From positions 1 through 36,666 of the forward strand of contig JADFPD010000009.1 in assembly GCA_022562475.1 (NCBI GenBank): a stretch of DNA of 36,666 bases, given 5' to 3'. Below the pieces are notes generated by a model. The model had not been told where the DNA came from. It was given only the letters and a program-made list of their open reading frames with translations, and did no database searches. Origin of the DNA: Chloroflexota bacterium (GTDB lineage Bacteria > Chloroflexota > Dehalococcoidia > Lucifugimonadales > UBA3495). Every line of letters begins with the position of its first letter. Position 1 is the stretch's first letter. This document shows positions 9,890 through 33,476 of the stretch, one piece after another. A program made the translations under genes and the position numbers.

Positions 9890-12106
9890 TTAATGATGAA
9901 ATTGCTCGTGGCCTTCAAACCCGACGGCGTCGGCGGCGATCAGCAGGTCTGGCCGGTTGCCCCAGCGCTTCAGGAACCGCCCGAAGTTCTTCCTGCTCAA
10001 TTCGTCGCGTTGGTTGTCGTCCAACTCCGTCCACTGGCGGTGTTCGTGGCGGACCAGGGGCAGGCTGGAGTCCGCCACCACCCGGAGACCCTTGTCCTTG
10101 AACTGGAAGCAATAATCGATGTCCAAGTTCCGGTAGAAACGGAAGCACTCACGCATCAGCCCGACGTTGTTGACCTCTGCCCGGCGGAAGGCCATGCAAT
10201 AGGCCTGCATGGCGTCGGCGTCTCCGCTCTCAACCTCTTCGTGGAAATGCTGCATGTCGGGGGTGCTGAGTCCCCAGGGGCCGAAGATACCCACCGTAGG
10301 GTCGCTCAGTTTCTCGGCGATGGAGTCCAGGATATTCCCTGTGATCTCCGCTGAACCGTCCAAGACCACGATGTTGCGGCCGCGGCTCTGCTTGAGGCCG
10401 ATGTTCTTGCTGGCAGCGTCGCCGATAACGTGATCGCAGTGGACCACACGGAGTTCCGGGTACTCAATTAACATCTCCTCCAGGAGTTCCCCGGTGCCGT
10501 CCGTAGAGCCATTGTCGATGACGATGGCCTCAACGGAGTGGCTACCGGAGTGTTGGAGCATCCCGTTGATGCAGCGCCTGACGTCGCTGGGATATCCGTA
10601 TGCGTTCAAAACGAAAGTGAAGTCGAGCTCGGAGGGCAGGTCCAAGTAGGACTCAACCTCCCTCGACGACGACACTGAGGCCCACTTTTCTTGCCGCAGT
10701 TCCAATGGCGTCTTGGGCCGGGCCCGCGTGCCGGCTGCGGTGTCTTGCACGATATAGCCATCCGAGACGAGTTGGCCCCGCAGGGAGTCCGCGGTGGCGT
10801 AGTCGGACCGTTCGCGGTGTCCCCCCCTGATTTTGAGTGTGGCGGCGACTTCGTTGTCCACGGTGTTCTCGGTTGGGGCCTTGTCCAAGTCCAGGCCGAA
10901 GATCTCGTCAAATTCCAGCAGGAGGTCCATCTTGACGCGGCCCGGCAGTTCAGACCGGACCATCGCCCAGGTCAAGGCCAGCGCGCCCGGAAGGTCCAGG
11001 TCCGATTCGACGGCCTCCCAGAACCGGCGCCGGTATTCCTCGGTCTCGCCTGCGTGTTTGGCGGCCTGTCCGTTGGCATCCGGTTCTTGGCTCCAGAGCC
11101 ACACCCGCTGCCGCAGGCCGGTCAGAGCCTTCTCCGCGGCCTTCAAAGATGTGAAGGTGAAGTTCATGCGGTGGCGGTACAGGATGGTCATGCACAAATA
11201 GCGGAAGGAGAGGGGAGAGAAACCGCGCTCGATCAGTTCTTCGATGAGGAAAACATTGCCGGCGGACTTGGCCATCTTGGCGCCGTCGGCCAATAGATGT
11301 TGGGCGTGGACCCAGTAGTTGACGTGTTGGTGGCCGAAAGCGCCCTCGCTCTGGGCGATCTCGTCTTCGTGGTGGGGAAATACGTTGTCGACGCCACCCG
11401 TGTGGATGTCGAAACTCTCTCCCAGGTATTTGGAAGCCATGGCTGAACACTCGATGTGCCAGCCGGGGAATCCGGCGCCCCAGGGGCTGTCCCATTTCAC
11501 GTCTCGGCCCGGCTCCGCAGCCTTCCAGAGGGTGAAATCTCTGGGGTCGCGCTTCAGCGGATCGACCTCGGAACGAACGCCTTCCAACAGGTCGCCGCCG
11601 ATGTTGTTGGAGAGCTTGCCGTAGCCCTTGAATGACGGCACATCGAAGTACAGGTTGCCGCCCTTCTCGTAGGCATGTCCCTTGGCCAGCAGGGCTTCGT
11701 TTATGGCGATCATCTCTGGGATGTGGTCGCTGGCCCAGGGAAACACCGTAGCCTCCATGATGTTGAGGCGGGCTTCGTCCCGGTGGAACCGTCCGGCATA
11801 GACGCTGGCGATCTCTTGAATCGTCTTGCCCTCTGCCAGCGCGGCATTGATCATCTTGTCGCCGCCGGTCTCGGCCATCTCTCGGCGCATGTGGCCGACG
11901 TCCGTGATGTTCTTGACGTGCGTTACTTGCATGCCACTGTGAATCAGCGAACGACGGACCCAGTCGGCCATGAGGTAGGTACGCAGGTTCCCGATATGGG
12001 CGTCGCGGTATACGGTGGGACCGCAGGTGTACATTTGGATGATCCCCGGCGTAGTAGGGCGAATTTCTTCAACCCGTTTTGCCAGGGTGTTGTAGATGCG
12101 GAGCAA
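9890..12106 (-). CDS. cysS: Cysteinyl-tRNA synthetase fused to a family-2 glycosyltransferase
   Basis: 738 residues. Residues 1-~475 form a complete class I CysRS: zinc ligand C28 in TCGPTVY, HIGH motif as HIGN (37-40), NITDVGH, second zinc region GWHIEC (C220) and HHEDE (245-249), KMSKS as KMAKS (277-281), and the usual C-terminal SDYATADSLRGQL helix. Residues ~495-738 are a GT2-type domain beginning FTFVLNAYGYPSDV, with DNGSTDGTGE (531-540), VVLDGSAEITGN, CMAFRRAEV and FYRNLDIDYCFQ, resembling rhamnosyltransferase-like GT2 proteins. The frame is continuous with no internal stop, and the linker (~475-495) is short. The start is TTG with AGAGGT upstream. The first half charges tRNA-Cys; the second probably transfers a sugar to an unknown acceptor. 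CysRS is normally ~450-500 residues, so the fusion is unusual. Confidence 0.88.
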   Translation of the reverse strand: MLRIYNTLAKRVEEIRPTTPGIIQMYTCGPTVYRDAHIGNLRTYLMADWVRRSLIHSGMQVTHVKNITDVGHMRREMAETGGDKMINAALAEGKTIQEIASVYAGRFHRDEARLNIMEATVFPWASDHIPEMIAINEALLAKGHAYEKGGNLYFDVPSFKGYGKLSNNIGGDLLEGVRSEVDPLKRDPRDFTLWKAAEPGRDVKWDSPWGAGFPGWHIECSAMASKYLGESFDIHTGGVDNVFPHHEDEIAQSEGAFGHQHVNYWVHAQHLLADGAKMAKSAGNVFLIEELIERGFSPLSFRYLCMTILYRHRMNFTFTSLKAAEKALTGLRQRVWLWSQEPDANGQAAKHAGETEEYRRRFWEAVESDLDLPGALALTWAMVRSELPGRVKMDLLLEFDEIFGLDLDKAPTENTVDNEVAATLKIRGGHRERSDYATADSLRGQLVSDGYIVQDTAAGTRARPKTPLELRQEKWASVSSSREVESYLDLPSELDFTFVLNAYGYPSDVRRCINGMLQHSGSHSVEAIVIDNGSTDGTGELLEEMLIEYPELRVVHCDHVIGDAASKNIGLKQSRGRNIVVLDGSAEITGNILDSIAEKLSDPTVGIFGPWGLSTPDMQHFHEEVESGDADAMQAYCMAFRRAEVNNVGLMRECFRFYRNLDIDYCFQFKDKGLRVVADSSLPLVRHEHRQWTELDDNQRDELSRKNFGRFLKRWGNRPDLLIAADAVGFEGHEQFHH

Positions 12107-21265: not shown

Positions 21266-21442
21266 CGTTGCTAACATACCAGCACCGACCGAGAGCAACG
21301 AGACCCCTTGGTGCGCACGGGGTGGCGGCGGGAAATTGGCATGGAGCTACGATGGAACGGGGGACAGAGGCCATCTTGATCATTATCGAGGCAACAGCGC
21401 TGAGATAGGGCCGAATAGGGAATGTTGGATAGGAGTGAACAC

Positions 21443-22213
21443 ATGGCTTACGAAAACATCTTGGTGGAGAACGAAGAGGGCGTGGCGGTGATCACCATGG
21501 ACCGCCCAGAGGTCCTGAATGCCATGAACCACACCGTGAACACCGAACTCCACGACGCGGTGGTGGCGGCCAACGCAGACGAGAGCATCGGCTGCATCGT
21601 GATCACCGGCAGCGGCAATAAGGCCTTCTCCGCCGGTGGCGACATCCACGAGCAGCGGGAGGACGCCCGAAACCGCACCGAAGAGGAACGGGACACACGT
21701 CAAGGGGAACACTCGCGGTGGATGTACGAGCTCTCGGCCTCGCCCAAGCCGGTCATCGGCATGATGAATGGTTTGGCCTACGGCGGCGGCGCGGTGTTGG
21801 CGTCCTGTCTCGATATCCGGGTCGGCTGTGAGAACACCAAGTTCCGGTTCCTGGCCGTGGCCTATGGCCGCATCAACTGCACCTGGACCTTGACCAACCA
21901 GGTGGGCTGGCCCAAGGCCAAGGAATTGCTGTTCACGGCACGAATCGTTGAAGCAGAAGAGGCTTTCCAGATCGGCCTGTTGAACCACCTGGTGCCGGCG
22001 GACCAACTGCGGGCCAAGACCATGGAGATCGCAACTCTGATCGCCAAGAACAACCATACGTCGGTGATGGGCATCAAGCAGATACTGCTCAAGGATATGA
22101 CCGCCGACCTGCAAGGCATGTGGCAGAACGAAAAAGACTTCACCAATGTGGTCAAAGGCTACGGAGTTGAAGAAGCCTTCCCCGAATTCATAGCCAGGAA
22201 GGGCCGGGGGTAG
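21443..22213 (+). CDS. Crotonase (enoyl-CoA hydratase/isomerase) superfamily protein lacking both catalytic glutamates
   Basis: 256 residues from the ATG at 21443, which has GGAG in the expected place; the frame opens earlier (21422) but without support. The crotonase fold is clear: VITMDRPEVLNAMN, oxyanion-hole segment AFSAGGD (61-67), and GLAYGGG (110-116). In a by-eye alignment with enoyl-CoA hydratase, the Glu144 position (GGGxE) is Val118 and the Glu164 position (PE) is Ala138, so a classical hydratase mechanism is unlikely. It may be an isomerase, lyase or another acyl-CoA enzyme that uses different residues. It is on the opposite strand to its neighbours. Confidence 0.82.
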   Translation: MAYENILVENEEGVAVITMDRPEVLNAMNHTVNTELHDAVVAANADESIGCIVITGSGNKAFSAGGDIHEQREDARNRTEEERDTRQGEHSRWMYELSASPKPVIGMMNGLAYGGGAVLASCLDIRVGCENTKFRFLAVAYGRINCTWTLTNQVGWPKAKELLFTARIVEAEEAFQIGLLNHLVPADQLRAKTMEIATLIAKNNHTSVMGIKQILLKDMTADLQGMWQNEKDFTNVVKGYGVEEAFPEFIARKGRG

Positions 22214-22592
22214 TAGCAGAGAATCCGCAGAATCCCCTTCCCCTGGTTCGTTGCGTTGCCTCAAAAGTAGAACGGGAAGTGGTCCTGCTCCATTTATGGC
22301 CCACTGTGTCACCCTGGGTTGAGCGAACGCCACCGACATACACGTTAGCCTCAGCGATTGTCGTCTTAGAATTCGGCGATTGGCTCAAACGGCTTGGCGA
22401 TGCAGCATAATGCCAAATTATGATGGAGTGTTGGCTCTTCCCCGATTCCACCAAGCCTACACTAGAATCCACGTGCATTGGCGAGAATTTATGACCATCC
22501 TTAATGACGTGAACTAAACACCCAACATTGCTGCTCGACACGATTCCCTGATGGCCCACGTGGGCATCGTTCTAGTGATGCTGACAACGCCT
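22214..22592. other. Gene-free spacer between convergent genes
   Basis: About 380 bases between the stops of the crotonase-like gene and the leftward surface-protein gene. It is AT-richer than its surroundings and contains no credible ORF. A 12-bp palindrome GCCCACGTGGGC at 22554-22565 is the only structure seen; no hairpin with a T-tract was found. Confidence 0.55.
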
Positions 22593-25500
22593 TTATCCAG
22601 TTTCGTCTACCGCGTCGGGCAAGGGATCCCGTCTTACGCGTCGGGCCAGACCGACGCTTATTACAATGGAGGCCAGTGCCGACACAAAGGCAGCAACCAC
22701 GATCCACAGCCATATTGGTTGACCGTCTGGCTCGATAGGATTTAGAGACATAACTCTCTCTTCGTCAAACGTACCGTCGCCATCGTGGTCTATTCGCAAG
22801 ATTATTTGTCCGTGGCGTGAATCCGAGGCAGGCGCACCCAGGTTATATTCATGAACAGTTCCCGCTAATATGTCCAGGTTGGTCATCTCAAGTATTTCGG
22901 CTCCCAGTCTCGAGCGGCGGCGGATAACAATTCCGTATTCCCCATCAGTTTCTCCAACAACGGTTATATTGTATGCGGCGGAACCCGTCTCCTGCCGATT
23001 CGAAATTATGGTTACGGTTTCGTCGAAGTAGGAAGACCCAAGTATTTGTCTTTTGATCTCGCCGTTCACTATACCGGTAATGAGTCCACCTTCATCAACA
23101 ACGCGTAATTCAACGGGGCTCTGAATCTGAACCGTCATCACATCAACGGCAGGAAAAACGATTTTAGCCGCGTCCCATCGGGGCGCTAATTGTTGAACAC
23201 CGCTCAGTGTTCGGGAAACGTCCACCACTGGCAGAATAGCAACTATCCTACCAGGCGAGGAATCAAACACGTCAACTCGGATAAAGACCTGACCGCTCCC
23301 TTTTGAATAGTCGATTGTGATTTCAGATTCGCCCGGAGTATGGAGCCTGACGGTACCCAAGTCCCCAAGTTCCATCTTCTCAGCCACCACCGGAATTACT
23401 AGTGGGATTGCCTCTACTACGAATATTACGCCTTCACATAGAGCACCTGGCAAACCCAACAAGGCAAATAGCGGCAGGCATAAGGAATGGACCGTAGCAC
23501 CAATGATCATATCGGATGCGACGTCAGAGATGTAATCTCGTTTGGTCTTCCCAGTTACGAAGTTGTAATTCAACCACGAGTCACTGTTCTCAATTCTGGC
23601 CCCTAGAGCTTCTGCTACATCTAGCAAGTGAAGTTTTTCCTCAGACATTTCACGGGTTCTCTGGCCTATAGACAGTAAAGTGACCAGCCGCCCAAGCTCT
23701 CGAAGCTCCCAATCCGCCAGATTCGCATACTGAATTACATCATCCATGCTCTTTGGGACGAAGACGGCAATGCCAGTCAGATTTGAATTGATTGTGACGA
23801 TTCCTGGGTTCTTGGACCCCTTCAGATCGCCGGACCAGTGACTAAAGACGTAACCCTGTTCCGGATTTGCTTCCAACGTTACGATGCTTCCGCCAACATA
23901 TCTGTTTTGAGCAATGAGTTGACCGGCCGGATCAACGATTTCACCTTTTCCTTGGCTGACAAACATAACTGTGTACGTCTGGATCGGGGAAAGCCCTTCG
24001 GCTGTTTCTGGGCAGGCTCCTTGTTTTTTTAGTGATTCGAGCAAAGCTGTATTTTGTGAGGACGACCCCACGTATGCGGTCGCATTCCCCAGACCAAACG
24101 CCTCGTACATTCCGCCTCTAGCGGACAATGGAGGCTGCGAGGATCCACGACATGCCATGTAGTACTCGAACAGGGTATTTGCGCTACTGGCCGTCGGGTT
24201 CAGGGGGGCCGAGGGCACGGTGACCGCCGCCACTGGGGTGCCGCTGGCCTCGTTCGAAAGCGGGCCTTCACCCACGCTATTTACCGCCGCCACTTTGTAG
24301 TAGTAGGTCGTCCCGCTGCCGACGTTGGCGGTGTTGTCGAAGATGGTAAAACTGCTGGAGATCGTGGTGTAAAAACTCTCGCCTCCCGAGAACGTGCCTC
24401 GGTAGATCCGGTAGTTGGTTACCGCCGAACCACCGTTGCTGGAAGGTGCGTTCCAGGAGAGGAAGACCGACGTTGTCCCCGCAGTGGCCGTCAGTCCTTG
24501 AGGAGCCGAAGGTACTGTGACCGCCAGCTGAGGCTTGGCGTTTACCCCACTGGAAAGGGCCCCGGTGCCGGCGCTATTTACCGCCGCCACCTTGTAGTAA
24601 TAGGTGGTCCCGCTGCTGACGTTGGCGGTGTTGTCGAAGGTGGTCCCGGCGCTGGAGATCGTGGTGTAGAGGCTCTCACCCCCCGAGAACGTGCCCCGGT
24701 AGATCCGGTAGTTGGTCACAGTGGCGCCGCCGTTGCTGGAGGGCGCGCTCCAAGACAGAGCGACCGATGCTGTCCCGGCGGTGGCCGTCAGGTTCAGAGG
24801 AGCCGAGGGCACGGTGACCGCCACCTGGGGTGTGGCGTTTACCCCACTGGAAAGGGCCCCGGTGCCGGCGCTATTTACCGCCGCCACTTTGTAGTAATAG
24901 GTGGTGCCGCTGCTGACGTTGGCGGTGTTGTCGAAGGTCGTAAAACTGCTGGATATGGTGGTGTAGAGACTCTCGCCCCCCGAGAACGTGCCCCGGTAGA
25001 TCCGGTAGTTGGTCACCGTGGCGCCGCCGTTGCTGGAAGGCGCGTTCCAGGAGAGGAAGACCGATGCGGTCCCCGCAGTGGCCGTTAAGTTAAGGGGGGC
25101 CGAGGGCACGACGACCAAGCTGATCAGGAACGCGGTATTTGTCCCGGTGGAGGTGATGCCCTCGGACCAGGTTTTGATCAAGTAGCCGCTCTTGGCTGCG
25201 GTGAAGCTCCAGGTCCCCGGCGCGCCGGTGATAGTCACGTAGCCGCTGAAATTGGTGGGCTGGTTGAAGGATGAGCCATTCGCGTCTTGGCCCGTTACCA
25301 GAGCCCCGACGATAACTGGACCGGTGGTGCTCCCATCGCGTACGAATAGGGTGAGGGTGACGGAGTCCAATATAGCCGTCACCTTGACTGCGGTACCCTG
25401 GGGAGCCCAGTTTCCGGCATTGTTCACCGCATGGATGCCATACCAGTAGCCGCCGACCGAGGAGAGGGAATCGACGAAGGAGCCGGAGGAGCTACTACCG

Positions 25501-26981
25501 GAGGCGGTCTTGGTGTCTACCTTGACCCAGATACCAGGACTGCCCCCGTTGTCTGGGGCTCGCCACAGCTCCACCTGTTTTAGCCCCGAGCCGCCCGTAT
25601 CAGAGACGGAGTAAAAGATGGTGACGGAGTTGCCTACGGACACCGAGCCGGAAGAGACGGACAGGGAGTCCACTACTGGAATTTGGGAATCCACCACGAG
25701 CGGAGAGCTTACCTCGTTATCGGTCTCATCGGACTCTGAGACCTGATCACCCGAGTCCACCTCCACGATGATCTGATAGCTCCCGGGCGACAGGTCGGCA
25801 GGCAGGGTGCCGGAGGCGTTGTGCTGGTGAGTGGTCCCGTTGGTAGATAGGGAGGAATTGGAGTGGGAGAATAGGACCAGGTCCACCCCTTGGCCCACCA
25901 GGCGGATGGTATTTGATGAGGACGGAGCAGAGCTGGAGCCGTCGTTGCGCACCGTCCATCCAAGCGAGATAGTCTCCCCCGGCTTAGCGGAAGAGGGCGC
26001 GCTCAACCCAAACGGGACCAGGTTGGGAAGAGCAACTGCCCCAGTGGTGAAGCTGCGCTGGGCCGAGTACTGGCCCTGCTGGACCGGGCTCACGCTGTCG
26101 TTGAAGGACTGCACCTGCCAGTAGTAGGTGGTGTTGTGGGCCAGGGCCGAGGAATGGGTGTAGCTGGTGGCGGAGACGTTCGCACTCACCGAGCATCCCG
26201 GACAGGAGCTGGCGTTAGGGTCCGTGGGCAGGGTCCCCGCACTGGTGGCCACCGTCAGCCAGTACTTGTTGGCCCCACTCACCGCTGTCCAGGCGAAGAG
26301 CGGTGTGTTGGAAACCCCCGTTTGCCCGCTGAAAGGTGAACTCAGGGTGGGCGCCGACAGCAGGGGCGGGGCCTGCGTTGCCACCACCACGCTGGCGCCT
26401 ACGGAGCCCGTCAGGCCTTGATTGTCGGTGACGGTGAGGAATATCTGGTGGGTGCCGGCTACCAGGGGGAAGTTAAAGGTCTGAGAAGTGCTCTTCTGGG
26501 ACCCGTTGATCTTCCAGGAATACGCGGAGATGGCGCCGTCGGGGTCGAAGCTATTGGCGGCGGAGAAGCTGACCGTGACCACTCCTCCTGAGAGGACTAC
26601 CAGGTTGAGGATCTGGTTCTCCTGGGCGCTCTGCCCCCCCGAGGTCATGGTGAGGCGGGCCACGGGAGGGGTCTGGGTTTTCCTCAGCCAATTCTCCGCG
26701 GACCAACCAACTAAACCATCACTCCATTGGACCCTCCAGCGGTTAAAGTTGGAGCAGAAAACCGGCCCGTCAATAACAGTGCCCGTGGCTCCGTCGAATT
26801 TGCCACCTGTTTGCAGATCACAAGGGCTGGGGCCGCGCACGACCAGCCCACTGGAGGCGGTATTGAACACTTCAACGGTGTCACCGATGCCAAACCCGGC
26901 TGCCGCGGCGCCACTACCGCCCGTTAATTGGGCAGTGGAAAGAACGACTAGAATCAGGGCTACCAAACCGTGTTTGAACAC
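22593..26981 (-). CDS. Large multidomain secreted, C-terminally anchored surface protein (SH3-like, PKD, CARDB, FN3 repeats)
   Basis: 1462 residues. A signal peptide (~1-28) is followed by an SH3-like segment (~30-100), a PKD-like domain (~108-205; SFDPDGAISAYSWKING), an Ig/FN3-like domain (~210-318) and a CARDB-like domain (~320-435; LGWTVRNDGSSS). An Ig-like domain (~440-545), a carboxypeptidase-regulatory-like domain (~550-630) and three near-identical FN3 domains (~627-923) come next. After a linker there is an InlB-type beta repeat (~990-1060; GYVFSHWSGDL). The C-terminal third is AT-richer and unrecognised, with a hydrophobic stretch (~1150-1195), and ends in a transmembrane helix (~1423-1444) followed by RRVRRDP. 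This predicts an extracellular protein held by its C-terminus, probably for adhesion or polymer binding. The GTG start lacks an obvious Shine-Dalgarno. Confidence 0.82.
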   Translation of the reverse strand: MFKHGLVALILVVLSTAQLTGGSGAAAAGFGIGDTVEVFNTASSGLVVRGPSPCDLQTGGKFDGATGTVIDGPVFCSNFNRWRVQWSDGLVGWSAENWLRKTQTPPVARLTMTSGGQSAQENQILNLVVLSGGVVTVSFSAANSFDPDGAISAYSWKINGSQKSTSQTFNFPLVAGTHQIFLTVTDNQGLTGSVGASVVVATQAPPLLSAPTLSSPFSGQTGVSNTPLFAWTAVSGANKYWLTVATSAGTLPTDPNASSCPGCSVSANVSATSYTHSSALAHNTTYYWQVQSFNDSVSPVQQGQYSAQRSFTTGAVALPNLVPFGLSAPSSAKPGETISLGWTVRNDGSSSAPSSSNTIRLVGQGVDLVLFSHSNSSLSTNGTTHQHNASGTLPADLSPGSYQIIVEVDSGDQVSESDETDNEVSSPLVVDSQIPVVDSLSVSSGSVSVGNSVTIFYSVSDTGGSGLKQVELWRAPDNGGSPGIWVKVDTKTASGSSSSGSFVDSLSSVGGYWYGIHAVNNAGNWAPQGTAVKVTAILDSVTLTLFVRDGSTTGPVIVGALVTGQDANGSSFNQPTNFSGYVTITGAPGTWSFTAAKSGYLIKTWSEGITSTGTNTAFLISLVVVPSAPLNLTATAGTASVFLSWNAPSSNGGATVTNYRIYRGTFSGGESLYTTISSSFTTFDNTANVSSGTTYYYKVAAVNSAGTGALSSGVNATPQVAVTVPSAPLNLTATAGTASVALSWSAPSSNGGATVTNYRIYRGTFSGGESLYTTISSAGTTFDNTANVSSGTTYYYKVAAVNSAGTGALSSGVNAKPQLAVTVPSAPQGLTATAGTTSVFLSWNAPSSNGGSAVTNYRIYRGTFSGGESFYTTISSSFTIFDNTANVGSGTTYYYKVAAVNSVGEGPLSNEASGTPVAAVTVPSAPLNPTASSANTLFEYYMACRGSSQPPLSARGGMYEAFGLGNATAYVGSSSQNTALLESLKKQGACPETAEGLSPIQTYTVMFVSQGKGEIVDPAGQLIAQNRYVGGSIVTLEANPEQGYVFSHWSGDLKGSKNPGIVTINSNLTGIAVFVPKSMDDVIQYANLADWELRELGRLVTLLSIGQRTREMSEEKLHLLDVAEALGARIENSDSWLNYNFVTGKTKRDYISDVASDMIIGATVHSLCLPLFALLGLPGALCEGVIFVVEAIPLVIPVVAEKMELGDLGTVRLHTPGESEITIDYSKGSGQVFIRVDVFDSSPGRIVAILPVVDVSRTLSGVQQLAPRWDAAKIVFPAVDVMTVQIQSPVELRVVDEGGLITGIVNGEIKRQILGSSYFDETVTIISNRQETGSAAYNITVVGETDGEYGIVIRRRSRLGAEILEMTNLDILAGTVHEYNLGAPASDSRHGQIILRIDHDGDGTFDEERVMSLNPIEPDGQPIWLWIVVAAFVSALASIVISVGLARRVRRDPLPDAVDETG
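24211..25100. repeat. Three tandem ~297-bp repeats encoding FN3 domains
   Basis: Units begin near 24211, 24508 and 24802, with a fourth junction near 25100, each marked by a GCCGAGGGCACG-like sequence. The DNA, not only the protein, is nearly identical, so the array is recent or being homogenised and could vary in copy number. Confidence 0.8.
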
Positions 26982-27060
26982 GCGCGACGACCCGCTCGAT
27001 CGGTAATTTAGTTCGCCGTTCGTCTACTAAACGTCGTTTTAAATCGGATGAATCTCAATA

Positions 27061-27107
27061 CGATTCGGTAAAGATAGATCTATTACAATCCAACCGAATC
27101 GATTATA
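27061..27107 (-). promoter_or_regulatory. Inverted repeat and -10 box upstream of the surface-protein gene
   Basis: CGATTCGGT (27061-27069) and ACCGAATCG (27093-27101) form 9-bp perfect arms around a central palindrome TAGATCTA (27075-27082). A minus-strand TATAAT lies immediately upstream (27102-27107), so the repeat would overlap the transcription start. This is a plausible operator; no clear -35 box was seen. Confidence 0.45.
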
Positions 27108-27245
27108 CATCCAAATTGGAGGTGAAGGTTTCGAATGATATCTGGAGGCTAATAGCTCAGGTGTCCGTCAAACCCAGGCCCCAGTACGCGCCTTTATTTA
27201 CCTACAGCATTGGGAAAGAAAACCGATATGTGGGTGGCAAGTGCT

Positions 27246-27270
27246 CACCCTGAGCGAAGCGAAGGGTCTG
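27246..27270. repeat. REP-like intergenic repeat, variant unit
   Basis: ACCCTGAGCGAAGCGAAGGGT (within 27246-27270) has 5-bp complementary ends and shares the TGAG...GAAGCGA core with the 28-bp repeat next to it, so both look like members of one dispersed family. Confidence 0.5.
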
Positions 27271-27287
27271 TCAAGGATTGGATTAGA

Positions 27288-27315
27288 AGATTCTTCGTCG
27301 CTTCACTCCTCAGAA
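27288..27315. repeat. Dispersed intergenic repeat (copy 2, inverted)
   Basis: Exact reverse complement of 21238-21265 over 28 bp. The two copies bracket the crotonase-like and surface-protein genes. Confidence 0.75.
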
Positions 27316-27417
27316 TGACAGTTTTGAAGAGGGGGAAGGTTATGCCCGACGCAGTTGTGACTCTCGACAAAGTCGGAGACGGAGGCAAATCCATTCCAGA
27401 TATCCACCGCTCGGGAT

Positions 27418-27508
27418 CCTACCCGCTGAGCGTCCCTTTGGTGCTGGGGATCTGGGTTGGGGCGCGGGGGTCGGGCTCCAGGGCGTCGCGCAGGGCGCGG
27501 TCCAGGGC
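27418..27508 (-). repeat. Displaced copy of the hisB 3' end (left end of the island)
   Basis: 91 bp matching 32804-32894 at 87 positions in direct orientation. Read on the minus strand it encodes the last 29 codons and TAG stop of hisB (ALDRALRDALEPDPRAP, then TQIPSTKGTLSG). Three of the four differences are silent third-position changes (27437, 27452, 27488); the fourth (27501) changes Ala to Asp. It lies 28 bases beyond the stop of the FeoB-like gene. Expected for an attachment-site duplication after integration at the 3' end of hisB. Confidence 0.85.
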
Positions 27509-27536
27509 GATTTTCGGTCAAATCACTTGATGTTGT

Positions 27537-29246
27537 TCATCCTGAAATCCACGAAACCACGCGGGCCAGGACCCAGCCAGATACAAGCGCCACAGAAAAC
27601 TGGCGGGCGGCCGACTTACCTGCGAAAGACAATCCCAGCTCTCGGCGCACGGTCCAGAGCGTTACCAAACAGGCGGTCAGCGTAGAGGCAATGTATACCC
27701 CTACGAAAAGTTGACCCGTGGTGAACGCAGATAGCACTTCGCCTTCTTGGAATAGCAAAATACCGTCCTTCCTGATGGTGGACATTATGATCGGCATTGC
27801 GGCCTCGGTCGGCAACCCAACAACCGCGACGACCGGCTCAAAAATTCGGGATAACCATTCGATGATTCCCAATAGCGATAAGACGCTGGCGACGACGCAA
27901 ATCGCATAGAAAATCGGCAGCGCCGAATACACGAATTGGTGGACCATCGCTTTTGTTCGGGTCGTGACCGCCCGCATACTGGGGCGTTGGAAAAAGGCAC
28001 GGTCCGACAAGACCCGGTTCTCTAAGATGTTAGGCCCTTGCGAAAATAGGCGAGTGTAGATCGCACCAACGATGAATAGGACAAATATATATGGCAGAAA
28101 TAACCAAGGATGGCCGGTCGCGTTAAAGACAGATAAGGTCGCACCGATCTGATATGAACAAGCTGACGCGAAGGTGATCATCGTGACGCAGTTACGACGG
28201 TTACAAGAGCTACACGACCGGCTCTGGACCACGGCCACAACATTGCAGCCAAACCCTGTTATCACTGGGACCAGATCACGTCCCGAAAGCCCGATTCGTC
28301 TCATTGGCTTGTCCACTGCCGCGGTGATCCGGTCCTTAAGTCCAGTCTCATCTGCCAAAGCGACTGACAAACCAATGAACAACACCACCGGAAACGCCCA
28401 TAAGAGGCTGTACCAACCGAGTGTCAACAACCCAAATCGACCGATCATTATTGTTGAAACCACGTGAGGAGCGTCTTCGAATGCCGCTTCAAACCGGACG
28501 ATCAAGAAGGCATCGAGTAGCGGTTCAAGCAGGCTGGACAACGTGAACGCGATATAAACGGGCAAGGCAAACATCCCAAAGAGCGCGATGATCGCCAATC
28601 CGGGACCAACATATGGCATCTCGAAAACTGAAGCCTTCGCTACGATGACTGGCGCGGTCCCGATCGGAACGCCCATGGGTTTGCTTAATGGTCGAGCTGA
28701 ACTGATACCGTCTAAGATCTTTTGTTGATCGATCGCTGAGAGTCGCCTGGAATTCGTAAGCACCGTAGGAACACCGTAGAGCTTACGGAATGCCGATGCG
28801 AGGCGAGCGCCAACCGCAGGCGATACTTTGTCAGCGAATGTCAAAACCACGAGGGCACGGCGGCCAACCAGTTGCAGTCCATCCAACAGATGATTCATCT
28901 GAGTCATCGAGTTGGTGGCCTGGACCACGACAGCAACAACGTCCGCGTTCTCCAGTTTGGCCAATGCAGCTTGCGTGGTTTCAGTGTCCGCGGATAGACG
29001 GATACCTGGTGTATCCCACAGGTCCCAGTCGCCGACGCCGCCGCGTCTCGCCGTTACGGACGATCCACGGAAATTCGACTCGTCGGCATTCGAATGCCCG
29101 GTTAGTCCTCTGAAGATTGCCGACTTCCCAGTTGATTCTAGCCCAACCAAAACCACCGATAGATTATTCGTTTGCGCACGGTCGTCCGATTGGTTTTCGC
29201 TGCTGATTCTCCCGAACCCAAATAACCGGAATGGCGAAAGATGCAT
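27537..29246 (-). CDS. FeoB-like GTPase/membrane transporter with cysteine-rich gate
   Basis: 569 residues, shorter than typical FeoB (~700 or more). The N-terminal G domain has a P-loop GLESTGKS (35-42), the DTPG motif (78-81), and FADK (137-140) where NxxD would be expected, so guanine specificity may be altered. Membrane segments start near 215. The FeoB gate motif is recognisable as GFGCNVVAVVQSRS (331-344; C334), followed by C345, C348, C353 and C363 in SCSSCNRRNC and SACSYQ; ordinary FeoB has few cysteines here. The second gate half is near 430-540 (ALPIFYAICVVASVLSLLG, LPTEAAMPIIM). Probably moves Fe2+ or another soft metal across the inner membrane. It follows the reductase gene by 23 bases and is last in the island operon. 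Confidence 0.78.
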   Translation of the reverse strand: MHLSPFRLFGFGRISSENQSDDRAQTNNLSVVLVGLESTGKSAIFRGLTGHSNADESNFRGSSVTARRGGVGDWDLWDTPGIRLSADTETTQAALAKLENADVVAVVVQATNSMTQMNHLLDGLQLVGRRALVVLTFADKVSPAVGARLASAFRKLYGVPTVLTNSRRLSAIDQQKILDGISSARPLSKPMGVPIGTAPVIVAKASVFEMPYVGPGLAIIALFGMFALPVYIAFTLSSLLEPLLDAFLIVRFEAAFEDAPHVVSTIMIGRFGLLTLGWYSLLWAFPVVLFIGLSVALADETGLKDRITAAVDKPMRRIGLSGRDLVPVITGFGCNVVAVVQSRSCSSCNRRNCVTMITFASACSYQIGATLSVFNATGHPWLFLPYIFVLFIVGAIYTRLFSQGPNILENRVLSDRAFFQRPSMRAVTTRTKAMVHQFVYSALPIFYAICVVASVLSLLGIIEWLSRIFEPVVAVVGLPTEAAMPIIMSTIRKDGILLFQEGEVLSAFTTGQLFVGVYIASTLTACLVTLWTVRRELGLSFAGKSAARQFSVALVSGWVLARVVSWISG

Positions 29247-29269
29247 AGAGAGCTCTATATGGATTTTTC

Positions 29270-30289
29270 TTAATCGCGGTCGTGGGCGAGGATCTCAAGC
29301 GGCCGAGGAGAAACCGCGTGCTTGAGAGAGATTTTTTCGATAGCTTTTACGAACTCTATGGACGGTCGACCGACTGAGTGTTCCCTGATACCTTCCCGCG
29401 CAAATAAATAGGTCTCAGCTAAACACGCAAAAGTGTCAGATGCCGGGAGGCCTAAATCGTAAGTGCAATTGTATGAAGGGATCTGTACGATGCCTCCGGC
29501 TACTACCGACACTCCACGCTGCTGGAAACGGACATGGGATGAACGGGCGATGTTTGGCGGTTGGGCGAAATCGATAACTACTGTTCCCGGCCGCAGAATT
29601 TCCGGACTCATCCGTGCCGACGGGGCGCTGGTTAGTAGAACTACGATGTCACATTCGTTTACGGCGCTTAGGTTCTCGGCGAAGGTGGCCTGAGGGGCTA
29701 GTCCACCGAACAAATGCCGGACCCGTTCCACACTTCGGCCAACTAAGACAAGGTTGAATCCGGCGTCCGCCAGCAAATGACAGGCGGGAACTCCTACCGA
29801 CCCGGTGCATCCGACGAGCCCTACTCGGGCTTTGTCACCCAATCCAATGAATTTGGTGGCCTCACTCACGTTTTGCCGGACGACCGATGCGGTGTATGCA
29901 CTCCCGTTGGTTAGAGTCACCTGAGGCGCGAGATTCCGCCTCAGCGTTAGGCCACCGCCGGTGACAGAAGAGGTTAAGGCGCCTAGGCCAACTACCTGCG
30001 CACCCCTGCTCGCCGCCAATGAAACAGCTTTAGCTGTTGCTCCCTTTCCTTGGGCGCCTTGCATCTCTTCGGGCATCAGCATCGCCGAAATAATTTCGCC
30101 CCATATAGGAGCGTAGCCGAACAATACTTCGCCTACCATCTGCGGCTGAAGGGTGCAAGCCTTCCTCAAAGCCTCAGCTTCGCTTGAGCTATGTCTCCTT
30201 AGAAAATCGAAGGACCCAGAGCGGCGAAGATCATCAACATCGCGAGGATGATTCAGGAAGCAGAACCAGGGCTCCGAAAGTCTGGACAT
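29270..30289 (-). CDS. Acyl-ACP reductase-like NAD(P)-dependent dehydrogenase
   Basis: 339 residues from the ATG at 30289 (a TTG five codons upstream at 30304 is an alternative; neither has a strong Shine-Dalgarno). The order of motifs matches the cyanobacterial aldehyde-forming fatty acyl-ACP reductase family (AAR; COG5322-like). It shows FLNHPRDVDDL at the start, VVGLGALTSSV, a TNGSAYTASVVRQ segment, the NADP-binding VGLVGCTGSVGVPACHLLADAG, AGGIVQIPSYNC, and DTFACLAETYLFA, whose Cys (289; 294 from the TTG) aligns with the acyl-enzyme cysteine of AAR. It would reduce an acyl thioester to an aldehyde; no aldehyde-deformylating oxygenase is nearby. Located between the interrupted unknown gene and the FeoB-like gene. 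Confidence 0.7.
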   Translation of the reverse strand: MSRLSEPWFCFLNHPRDVDDLRRSGSFDFLRRHSSSEAEALRKACTLQPQMVGEVLFGYAPIWGEIISAMLMPEEMQGAQGKGATAKAVSLAASRGAQVVGLGALTSSVTGGGLTLRRNLAPQVTLTNGSAYTASVVRQNVSEATKFIGLGDKARVGLVGCTGSVGVPACHLLADAGFNLVLVGRSVERVRHLFGGLAPQATFAENLSAVNECDIVVLLTSAPSARMSPEILRPGTVVIDFAQPPNIARSSHVRFQQRGVSVVAGGIVQIPSYNCTYDLGLPASDTFACLAETYLFAREGIREHSVGRPSIEFVKAIEKISLKHAVSPRPLEILAHDRD

Positions 30290-30387
30290 CAGTCTGGCTC
30301 TCAATGATGGAATGGTTAATGACGATTGACTGGTGTCCGTAACTGACCGGTCAGTTGCCTTTCCCGTTGCATCTGGGTCTCATTTTC

Positions 30388-30567
30388 CTAATCTGTCGCC
30401 AGGAGAGGCACCAATTTCATACTGCCTTCAAATTCAATCTCTACGTGTCCACCCCCCAACTGCTCTGGCCAGTTAATCAGGAACCGTGTGCCGTACAGCA
30501 CCTGTACCGGCTGCGCCTGTTTCAGTACATCTAGGCTAGCCCCCACACTGGAGGTGATGCGGCCGTC
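30388..30567 (-). other. In-frame open extension after the TGA of the unknown gene
   Basis: Directly after the TGA at 30568-30570 the same frame stays open for 59 codons to a TAG at 30388-30390. Its translation is protein-like (GRITSSVGASLDVLKQAQPV, then a hydrophilic C-terminus ending LVPLLATD). This suggests the original protein was about 210 residues and that the TGA is either a nonsense mutation or a read-through stop (UGA followed by C). There is no selenoprotein-type Sec insertion structure that I can identify. Confidence 0.55.
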
Positions 30568-31023
30568 TCAACCTCCAGTGGCGCCGGACCATATCGAACC
30601 TGGCAGGAAATCGAGACACCCCTCAGCGTGCCAACCTGATCGGTCCGGCGTCAGGGTACAGACGTCAGTTGCAACGACGCGCACTGGATTTAGCAGCATG
30701 GGGTCAAAATTGCCCGAGGTGATGGTCTGGTATAGACCCGGAAACACGATCTGCGCCCCGTAGGAGACGACTAGTTTCGAGCGGGCGTAATCGATCGTGC
30801 CGATATTCTTGGACGGCCCCGCCTCCGGGTCAGCGGTCAAACAGATCTGTCCGGAATCGACGAATTCGTCCTTGCTCAACGGCAGACGAACACTCTTGGT
30901 GCTTAGACCATAAAGTGAAGTTACTTGAAACATCACGTGATTGGCGGATGGTTGGGACGACCGCATGTCCGCGATCTTTCGTGGCGAAAGTTCAATTTGA
31001 ATATCGCCTGTTGCTCGCGCCAT
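30568..31023 (-). CDS. Unrecognised island protein, interrupted by an in-frame TGA
   Basis: 151 residues from the ATG at 31023 to TGA at 30568. I chose this start because AAGGAG lies nine bases before it; an ATG at 31044 adds seven residues without a site. No family recognised. It looks beta-rich and soluble (IQIELSPRKIADM, VMFQVTSLYGL, VRLPLSKDEFVDSG, KLVVSYGAQIVFPG), has no signal peptide, and contains three cysteines, two late (VCTLTPDRSGWHAEGC). The same frame continues for 59 codons after the stop, so the native product may be ~210 residues. It lies between the five-Cys peptide gene and the reductase gene on the same strand, so it probably belongs to their operon. Confidence 0.55.
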   Translation of the reverse strand: MARATGDIQIELSPRKIADMRSSQPSANHVMFQVTSLYGLSTKSVRLPLSKDEFVDSGQICLTADPEAGPSKNIGTIDYARSKLVVSYGAQIVFPGLYQTITSGNFDPMLLNPVRVVATDVCTLTPDRSGWHAEGCLDFLPGSIWSGATGG

Positions 31024-31290
31024 AATCGTTAACTCCTTCCGCATGGAAATAATACGGGCGCTTGGTCAATCACCAAGATCACCCGCGCCAACGCTCCGAA
31101 ATTTGACAAATGAAACCCCATCGGCCGCGTATACGACCCCCGGCGCTTTTAATGCCAGGATCAACATCGGCGAATACGTGACACGCACCCAACGTTGCTT
31201 CCGGTTACGAACTCCCACCGAGTCAGGTGGCAGCGATCAATCGCGGTAGACTTTCATCACGTCCCGTATCATCGGGCCGTGATCGTTGCG

Positions 31291-31527
31291 TTATTTCTCC
31301 AGAACACCTGCCTGTGGGCTGACGAGACAGGTCGAAAGCACCTGCTGGCATTTCTGTGACAAAACGCCCCGTTCAACCATGTCGCAATCACCACTCGAGG
31401 CACATATTTCCATCGCTGTTAAGCAGTCGTGAACGATGAATGGCCTCGCAGCCTTGGCGATGCCACCGGATAGATGAATCACAAGACCCTCGCCTGTTTC
31501 TTGCATCTTGATCGACTCTCGTGGCAT
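31291..31527 (-). CDS. Small five-cysteine peptide of the island
   Basis: 78 residues. The ATG at 31527 has a strong Shine-Dalgarno (GGAGG, seven bases upstream), which supports real expression. The N-terminal ~30 residues (MQETGEGLVIHLSGGIAKAA) contain no Cys; the rest has C35, C42, C48, C60 and C67 (HDCLTAMEICASSGDCDM, QKCQQVLSTCLV). There is no signal peptide and no transmembrane segment. A leader-plus-Cys-core layout could mean a modified peptide precursor or a small metal- or redox-binding protein, but no known precursor family is recognised. It sits between the LuxR-type HTH gene and the unknown gene. Confidence 0.6.
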   Translation of the reverse strand: MPRESIKMQETGEGLVIHLSGGIAKAARPFIVHDCLTAMEICASSGDCDMVERGVLSQKCQQVLSTCLVSPQAGVLEK

Positions 31528-31562
31528 GGTATTTCCTCCGTCCGTTATATTTAGGAAGCGGT

Positions 31563-31573
31563 CCCGATTCGGG
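31563..31573. promoter_or_regulatory. Palindrome upstream of the five-Cys peptide gene
   Basis: CCCGA-T-TCGGG, an 11-base perfect inverted repeat, lies 36 bases before the peptide's ATG; a TATAAC-like -10 box (minus strand, about 31541-31546) lies between. A LuxR-type HTH gene is next upstream, so it is a candidate operator. Confidence 0.4.
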
Positions 31574-31744
31574 TTGGGTGGACTTTGATCTAGAGGAGCA
31601 AAGTATTATCACCAGCAATGTCTCGGTGGTCAGAACCTGAGCCGCGACATTAAATCGGCATGTTTGAATATATCGCGCGCGCTCTACGCCGCATAGATTG
31701 CAAAGGTACCTCTGTGAGGCACGATTAATGCGGAACGGCTTTTT

Positions 31745-31978
31745 TTAAAGGAGAATTCGGCGGTGCTGCTGCCTGCGGACCACGACGATCCGGGCCAGGA
31801 GGTCCGTGCGGTTCCGGGCTTCATATTTGAGGATGAGGTTGCTGATGTAGTTCCGGACTGTTAGCGGACTCAGATGCAACGCCTCGCCCATTTCCCGGTT
31901 CGAATAACCGTCGAACAGTAAGCGCACGATGTCCTGCTCCCGCGGCGTCAGCTTTGACCTTTTAAACGGCTGTCTCAT
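31745..31978 (-). CDS. LuxR/GerE-type helix-turn-helix protein (DNA-binding domain only)
   Basis: 77 residues from the ATG at 31978 (86 if a TTG at 32005 is used); neither start has a clear ribosome site. The whole protein is one LuxR HTH: LTPREQDIVRLLFDGYSNRE, then MGEALHLSPLTVRNYISNLI and a KYEARNRTDLLARI end. There is no receiver, autoinducer or other sensory domain, as in GerE-type regulators or in the C-terminal fragment of a broken larger regulator; in-frame upstream sequence closes at a stop a few codons before the TTG. It is the most upstream gene of the island and may control it. Confidence 0.72.
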   Translation of the reverse strand: MRQPFKRSKLTPREQDIVRLLFDGYSNREMGEALHLSPLTVRNYISNLILKYEARNRTDLLARIVVVRRQQHRRILL

Positions 31979-32005
31979 GCGTAAATATCGCGCCCGCCGG
32001 TTCAA

Positions 32006-32803
32006 GTGAAATGTGGCCAGGTATTAGACCGGGCGTTATCACCCTACCCGGAAGATTGCGTCTCGTGGGTAAATCCGCAAGCCTCGGAATCATTACGCTG
32101 CAGCTCAACACGGATTCCCTGATATCCCATCTGTCGCATGATCGAGAGGGATGGCAGGTGATTCCGGATTTTTAGATAGGGTAGGAAGGATTCTGGTCTC
32201 CAAGGTATTCGGATTCAGACGGAGGAGGCGCCAATTTTATTCTGGCGCGTTTGCAAAAGGTTAAAGAGTAAGAAGTTTGTTTAAGAAAAGACTGCGGACC
32301 GGTCTGTCGACGGCTTCGAGACGCCAATCAGGAATGCGTTCGGTAGGCCGGAGATTTCGAAACACCGGCTAGTTGATGGCCTTCACCAAGGTAAGATCCT
32401 ATCCACAAACACGGCGGTCGGATCTATATCGAAGCCCTTTAGAAATTTGGCCTAAGTATAGTAATACTATCTAATATGGTCAAGTAAATTATAACTTCAA
32501 GCTTAATAGATGCCTGATACGGAGATACCGTGATACGCGAAAAATGGTAAGGGTAGTGATTTCTCAGCTTAATGCGAAGGACCAAGATGGGGGTGATAAC
32601 TAAAAACAGGTTCGAAAGAATACCAGGTATGCCGGCGATTTAAAAACGCCGTGGTGGAAGAGGCGCCGGGTCATTCATCCCGTTCACGTTCACCCAGGCG
32701 GTCCAAGGTCCAACCAACTACTAGATGCAGTTAGGCGGACGTAGCGGGCGCATTCCCCATCGTCATAAACGATGGAGAAGAACCCGTGCCAACGACGAAA
32801 TCC
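32006..32803. other. Gene-free, AT-richer segment of the island next to hisB
   Basis: About 800 bases with no credible ORF on either strand and no recognisable integrase remnant. It contains a 13-bp perfect palindrome ATAGTA-A-TACTAT at 32458-32470 in a very AT-rich stretch, a short hairpin GCGCCA/TGGCGC at 32228-32248, and another CGGCG/CGCCG at 32633-32651. It could hold a promoter region for the island, a recombination site, or decayed genes. Confidence 0.55.
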
Positions 32804-32894
32804 CCTACCCGCTGAGCGTCCCCTTGGTGCTGGGGATTTGGGTTGGGGCGCGGGGGTCGGGCTCCAGGGCGTCACGCAGGGCGCGGGCCAGGGC
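32804..32894 (-). repeat. Right copy of the 91-bp direct repeat (functional hisB 3' end)
   Basis: Last 30 codons of hisB including the TAG stop; matches 27418-27508 at 87 of 91 positions. Similarity ends two bases after the stop and at codon 30 from the end, with no similarity outside. Confidence 0.85.
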
Positions 32895-33434
32895 TTTGCA
32901 AAGGGCTTCGGCCTTGTGGTGCGGGCTGACTCCCGCCAAGATCTTGGCGTGGAGGTTTATCTTGCCCTCCAAGGCAAAGGACTCGAAGAAGTGCTTCACC
33001 AAGGCGCCGGGCAGCGTCTCCACCATGGTGTCGTCCAAGGTCGTTTCGATCTCTGCGTACCCACGGCCACTGCAGTCGAGCGCCACCATGGCCAGAGTCT
33101 CGTCAAGCGGCACGATGGCGTGGCCCATGCGGCGGATGCCTCGGCCGTCGCCCAGCGCCTCGTTGAACGCCCGGCCCAGGGTGATCGCTACATCTTCCAC
33201 CAAGTGGTGCCAGCCGGTGTGGATGTCCCCTTTGGCGTGCAGTGTAATGTCGATCAGTCCGTGCCGGGAGATCTGGCTGACCATGTGGTCCAAGAACCCG
33301 TTGCCGGTGTCCACGTCATAGACGCCGGTGCCGTCAAGATTCAGCGTCAGTGAAATCTCGGTCTCGCCGGTCTTGCGTTCTATGGTCGCAGTCCGGTCAT
33401 TTCCCTTAGTCGTTGCCGGTTTTCTAGGCGGCAT
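32805..33434 (-). CDS. hisB: Imidazoleglycerol-phosphate dehydratase
   Basis: 209 residues, the normal monofunctional length. It catalyses the dehydration of imidazoleglycerol phosphate in histidine biosynthesis. Diagnostic motifs: NGFLDHM, the metal-binding HHLVEDVAITLG and RMGHAIVPLDE, a later HFFESFA, and the conserved C-terminus IPSTKG. The ATG at 33434 has GAGGA seven bases upstream; an earlier TTG (33461) lacks this. It is the last gene of hisD-hisC-hisB. Its final 30 codons are duplicated at 27418-27508, so its 3' end may have been donated by an integrated element. Confidence 0.95.
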   Translation of the reverse strand: MPPRKPATTKGNDRTATIERKTGETEISLTLNLDGTGVYDVDTGNGFLDHMVSQISRHGLIDITLHAKGDIHTGWHHLVEDVAITLGRAFNEALGDGRGIRRMGHAIVPLDETLAMVALDCSGRGYAEIETTLDDTMVETLPGALVKHFFESFALEGKINLHAKILAGVSPHHKAEALCKALARALRDALEPDPRAPTQIPSTKGTLSG

Positions 33435-33476
33435 CACTTCTTCCTCACGATTCATTCCCAAGTTCTGGCACGAGAT

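Follow-up and report, generated by a model that had tools for sequence, protein, structure and literature searches.

One end of hisB, the gene for imidazoleglycerol-phosphate dehydratase, is found twice in the same orientation in the DNA analyzed here, on either side of a group of foreign genes. How did the end of a housekeeping gene come to lie 5.3 kb from the gene itself, and does the arrangement mark an integrative element or a different kind of recombination? The initial annotation read it as an element that had inserted at hisB and supplied a replacement terminus. The displaced hisB end and the acquired nature of the cargo held up in our analysis; insertion of an element at hisB did not.

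The window, i.e., the whole stretch of 36,666 nucleotides, is an entire contig (C140) of a marine SAR202 (Dehalococcoidia) metagenome-assembled genome of 2.96 Mb, in 166 contigs, with 78% completeness and 5% contamination. The named relatives are likewise metagenome genomes of SAR202/Dehalococcoidia. The features of the locus are listed in Table 1.

Table 1 Features of the ECH-hisB region in the window
Feature	Position	Strand	Evidence or remark
Enoyl-CoA hydratase (ECH)	21422..22213	+	Convergent neighbor of hisB, conserved across SAR202
FN3/CARDB/PKD secreted protein, 1462 aa	22593..26981	-	Inside the ECH-hisB gap
Dispersed intergenic repeats adjoining the relic	27245..27386		About 45 matches in the genome
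Relic hisB 3′ end (repeat copy L)	27418..27508	-	29 codons, stop, and 1 nt; a single missense change, at an invariant position
Cassette gene 1: FeoB-like GTPase/Gate-domain transporter, 569 aa	27537..29246	-	Pfam Gate, FeoB_N
Cassette gene 2: long-chain acyl-ACP reductase-like protein, 344 aa	29270..30304	-	NCBIfam TIGR04058, 1e-21; PigE N-terminal region, 2e-25; PDB 6jzq, 3e-19
Cassette gene 3: frame of about 218 aa with in-frame TGA at 30568-30570 (158 + 59 codons)	30388..31044	-	Six-frame translation
Cassette ORF 4: small cysteine-containing protein, 78 aa	31291..31527	-
Cassette gene 5: LuxR-type HTH regulator, HTH domain only	31745..32005	-	Pfam GerE, 8e-14
Cassette noncoding stretch, GC 49%	32006..32728		Without coding signs
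Genus-native hisB 3′ flank, cassette side	32729..32783	-	In-register match (38/55) with the DNA following hisB in congener G002
hisB 3′ end (repeat copy R, working end)	32804..32894	-
hisB, imidazoleglycerol-phosphate dehydratase, working copy	32805..33461	-	Pfam IGPD, 4.3e-54; 87-92% aa identity to congeners

The repeat contains a relic of a hisB 3′ end

Alignment and a repeat search both reproduced exactly the direct repeat that had been reported, with 87 of 91 positions identical and the copies 5,386 bp apart, so that 5,295 bp lie between them (positions 27509 to 32803). In a BLAST search of the whole genome, the E value of the repeat was 1.8e-36. Within hisB, the repeat spans 29 sense codons, the TAG stop codon, and 1 nt past it. 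It was also correct that copy L keeps the stop codon and that three of the four differences between the copies are silent; the fourth replaces Ala with Asp in copy L. As the nucleotide concerned is invariant in 20 of the 20 relatives aligned, copy L represents an unselected relic and copy R the working end, and the missense change would fit relaxed selection on the former. This supports the proposal that copy L was formerly the coding 3′ end of a hisB gene and has been displaced; the frame of the working hisB is intact.

The two copies differ from each other at 4 of 91 positions, versus at least 12 of 90 for any congener, values that would fit two near-conspecific haplotypes. Copy R is slightly nearer than the relic to most congeners. 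No further second hisB end was detected in the genome, and none was present in the 49 other genomes of the family.

The flank of the working hisB resembles that of a congener

On the cassette side, the DNA located 21 to 76 nt past the hisB stop codon shows in-register homology to the DNA that follows hisB in one congener, G002. Its score of 21 exceeded the maximum of 15 obtained with shuffled sequences, and none of the 5,000 shuffles reached it. The match was significant in this in-register test alone, as unrestricted alignment did not make it so; it concerns a single congener and 55 nt at 69% identity, and no other of the 47 loci was close. This in-register match indicates that the working hisB came with genus-native 3′ DNA rather than with DNA of an element.

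The outer flank of the relic matched no relative's hisB flank. It consists largely of a dispersed repeat, and the resident's original downstream DNA is therefore unrecognizable. An empty site, i.e., a relative in which the sequence outside the relic directly follows the only hisB end, had been predicted, but none of the relatives, which are not conspecific, has that arrangement. The dispersed intergenic repeat, of the CCCTGAGCGAAGCGAAGGGT... type, is present in congeners too.

The cassette carries acquired genes

The cassette genes have a GC content of 53 to 55%, compared with 60 to 62% for the flanking host genes. The FeoB-like gene is absent from 11 of 11 congeners and the reductase gene from the sampled Dehalococcoidia, the matches of the reductase being limited to other classes of Chloroflexota (28 to 37%). 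The lower GC content and these two absences indicate that the cargo was acquired. A relative of the FeoB-like gene is found in a plasmid operon of a soil Paenibacillus, together with genes for a GTP-binding (CobW-like) protein and for S14 and L33 paralogues, an operon that looks like a set of zinc-starvation functions. Other relatives are carried by Klebsiella plasmids, some of which may be virulence plasmids. We considered whether the cassette might be a conserved operon elsewhere and rejected this, since FeoB-like and reductase homologues are not adjacent in other Chloroflexota. Close homologues of the cassette were found neither in genome contigs nor in viral contigs.

The frame of cassette gene 3 is interrupted by a single TGA codon, probably a recent nonsense mutation, and this interruption suggests that the cassette is decaying. 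The 158-aa part of its product had no match in family searches, nor did any of the six frames of the noncoding stretch. The 78-aa ORF product has five cysteines in its C-terminal half. This ORF is near the acyl-reductase-like gene and might encode a small peptide that is secreted or serves as a precursor. A transposon or insertion sequence was rejected as the vehicle: the cassette contains no transposase gene and no inverted repeats of at least 18 nt, and a repeat of 91 bp exceeds the length of a target duplication.

The gap between ECH and hisB holds different genes in different relatives

ECH and hisB are convergent neighbors in 42 related contigs, where 4 to 2,844 bp separate them. In the window, the distance is 10.6 kb (positions 22214 to 32804). 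Relative to these genomes, the insertion is this entire interval, including the gene for the FN3 protein and the cassette. The size of 5.3 kb given earlier thus holds for the DNA between the repeat copies, and the real insertion is larger. In congeners, the gap contains a methyltransferase/spermidine-synthase-like gene (five genomes), a LicD-like gene (two genomes), or a sulfite-oxidase-like gene (one genome), and toxin-antitoxin-like genes occupy it in other genera of the family, all these names having been assigned by inspection. Its gene content changes from congener to congener, which makes the gap between ECH and hisB a variable-gene spot, and judging from these contents SAR202 genomes appear to tolerate the landing of variable genes there. 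The FN3-protein gene was rejected as a member of a shared island, because relatives gave only weak domain matches to it; it contains internal repeats of about 300 bp that are 85% identical (positions 24188 to 25116).

A second gene-end relic is found in the gap of congener G011 (SAR202 Casp-Chloro-G2). A decayed second copy of the 3′ part of ECH is located there just upstream of the spermidine-synthase-like gene (locus L099, positions 11340 to 11728; MUCI01000009.1), and an extra gene for a 402-aa secreted protein lies between the decayed piece and the intact ECH. This would be gene-end displacement without hisB, which points to a general process at the gap rather than to a hisB-specific attachment site.

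Elsewhere in the window, a 738-aa ORF (positions 9890 to 12106, minus strand) appears to combine a cysteinyl-tRNA synthetase with a family 2 glycosyltransferase domain, an unusual fusion (Pfam tRNA-synt_1e, 3e-95, residues 17 to 325; Glycos_transf_2, 1e-12, residues 499 to 609).

Proposed displacement of the resident hisB end by incoming DNA

The explanation that we favor, with about an even balance of belief and doubt, is that incoming DNA carrying hisB and cargo displaced the relic when it recombined, through homology at one end and illegitimately at the other. The donor DNA would have come from a close relative and carried its own hisB, the native 3′ flank, and the cassette of lower-GC genes. 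On the his-operon side, it would have paired with the resident DNA by homology, and on the far side an illegitimate joint would have formed inside the resident hisB, 90 bp before its end. The incoming hisB would thereby have taken over as the working gene, leaving the terminal 91 bp of the resident copy as a relic 5.3 kb away.

From this arrangement we infer a donor, an order of events, and, as the mechanism, homology-facilitated illegitimate recombination (HFIR). HFIR is known from bacteria capable of transformation and from conjugation in E. coli (PMC3240628). In line with it, the locus has a truncated resident end together with an intact hisB, and a native flank on the incoming side that is matched in one congener only. 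The genome encodes ComEC, so that DNA uptake is possible. Against this explanation, HFIR events are infrequent and as a rule remove DNA from the recipient, whereas here a 91-bp duplication would have been left, and the presumed donor arrangement, in which the cassette adjoins the only hisB end, was found in no genome.

By analogy, the relic fits a pattern described for the type VI secretion clusters (T6SS) of V. cholerae, where displaced 3′ ends of genes were proposed to result from HFIR (PMC5361080). In the T6SS effector arrays, and in rhs C-terminal displacement, a working gene is likewise followed by new cargo with the old 3′ end beyond it, no integrase is involved, and homology is one-sided (PMC5361080, PMC3240628). 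In contrast to those systems, the end displaced here is that of a housekeeping gene, the cargo has no relation to hisB, and the mechanism would be deduced from one case.

Alternative explanations

The same repeat would arise by site-specific integration if a small element without an integrase had been moved in trans by a tyrosine recombinase of the genome, with the 3′ end of hisB as attB, the gene end restored upon insertion, and the 91-bp copies as left and right attachment sites. We regard this as unlikely. A long direct repeat at both ends of the cassette that stops 1 nt past the stop codon, mostly silent differences, and an intact hisB frame are the signature of gene-end integration; the cargo is foreign, and the suggested search for a tyrosine recombinase yielded eight PF00589 matches. 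However, all eight are on other contigs of the genome and none is in the cassette, which in its 5.3 kb holds neither an integrase gene nor a remnant. The initial annotation had correctly seen none, and we rejected a degenerate integrase in the noncoding stretch of about 800 bp next to hisB, as the six frames of positions 32006 to 32803 contain none. A tblastn search of the 47 related hisB loci found nothing similar to the genome's own integrases, although several queries were short or badly extracted and a distant integrase could escape it. Among 2.9 million viral contigs there was no matching contig, and words from the hisB end were absent. Islands of tyrosine recombinases in protein-coding genes, such as e14 and phage 21 at icd, also have a gene-end direct repeat around foreign DNA and an intact gene, but the locus studied here differs from them in lacking an integrase, recurring use of the site in the family, and an empty site in relatives, and in having native chromosomal flank on the element side. 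Islands at dusA use the 5′ end of that gene (PMC4482086). Under integration, the working hisB end should adjoin DNA of the element, and native hisB downstream DNA should lie outside the relic; the reverse was seen, which weakens this model. The match to G002 is short and from one genome, and an element that had captured hisB and its flank would show the same match. The wider notion that SAR202 bacteria host satellite elements without an integrase, which attach at the 3′ end of hisB, are mobilized in trans, and bring genes for acyl reductases and FeoB-like transporters, is very improbable.

A gene-end direct repeat without an integrase is also expected from Campbell-type homologous insertion of a circle containing a hisB 3′ fragment, or from repair at the far end of the cassette in which hisB served as the template for a filler copy, and the native flank next to the working gene fits copying from the local hisB. 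Yet a filler copy would start out identical to its template, and only chance could have made it end 1 nt past the stop codon; moreover, 91 bp is short for a RecA-mediated crossover. This pair of routes seems rather doubtful. The repeat might finally be a chimera assembled from two strains co-occurring in the metagenome. The source is indeed a metagenome-assembled genome with the fragmentation, completeness, and contamination given above, and the copies differ by about 4%, as strains might. Arguing against a chimera, the window contains no N and has host genes on both sides, and at the joint between 27508 and 27509 there is no visible word shared with hisB that could have misled the assembler, the copies diverging at once; we consider it improbable.

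Meaning of the locus

Displacement of the resident hisB end thus remains our preferred reading, and the relic is most likely the scar of ordinary gene exchange at a variable spot, not the mark of a new kind of mobile element. Like other variable-gene spots between convergent core genes, this one has fixed borders, ECH and hisB, and a cargo that differs by species; it differs from them in that a recognizable gene-end relic remains. A displacement scar can mimic the textbook signature of an attachment site, a direct repeat of a gene end around foreign DNA, and comparison of the flanks with those of congeners helps to separate the two. The locus offers a worked case of gene flux at the conserved hisB-ECH spot in uncultured SAR202, a group in which the routes of gene transfer are little known.
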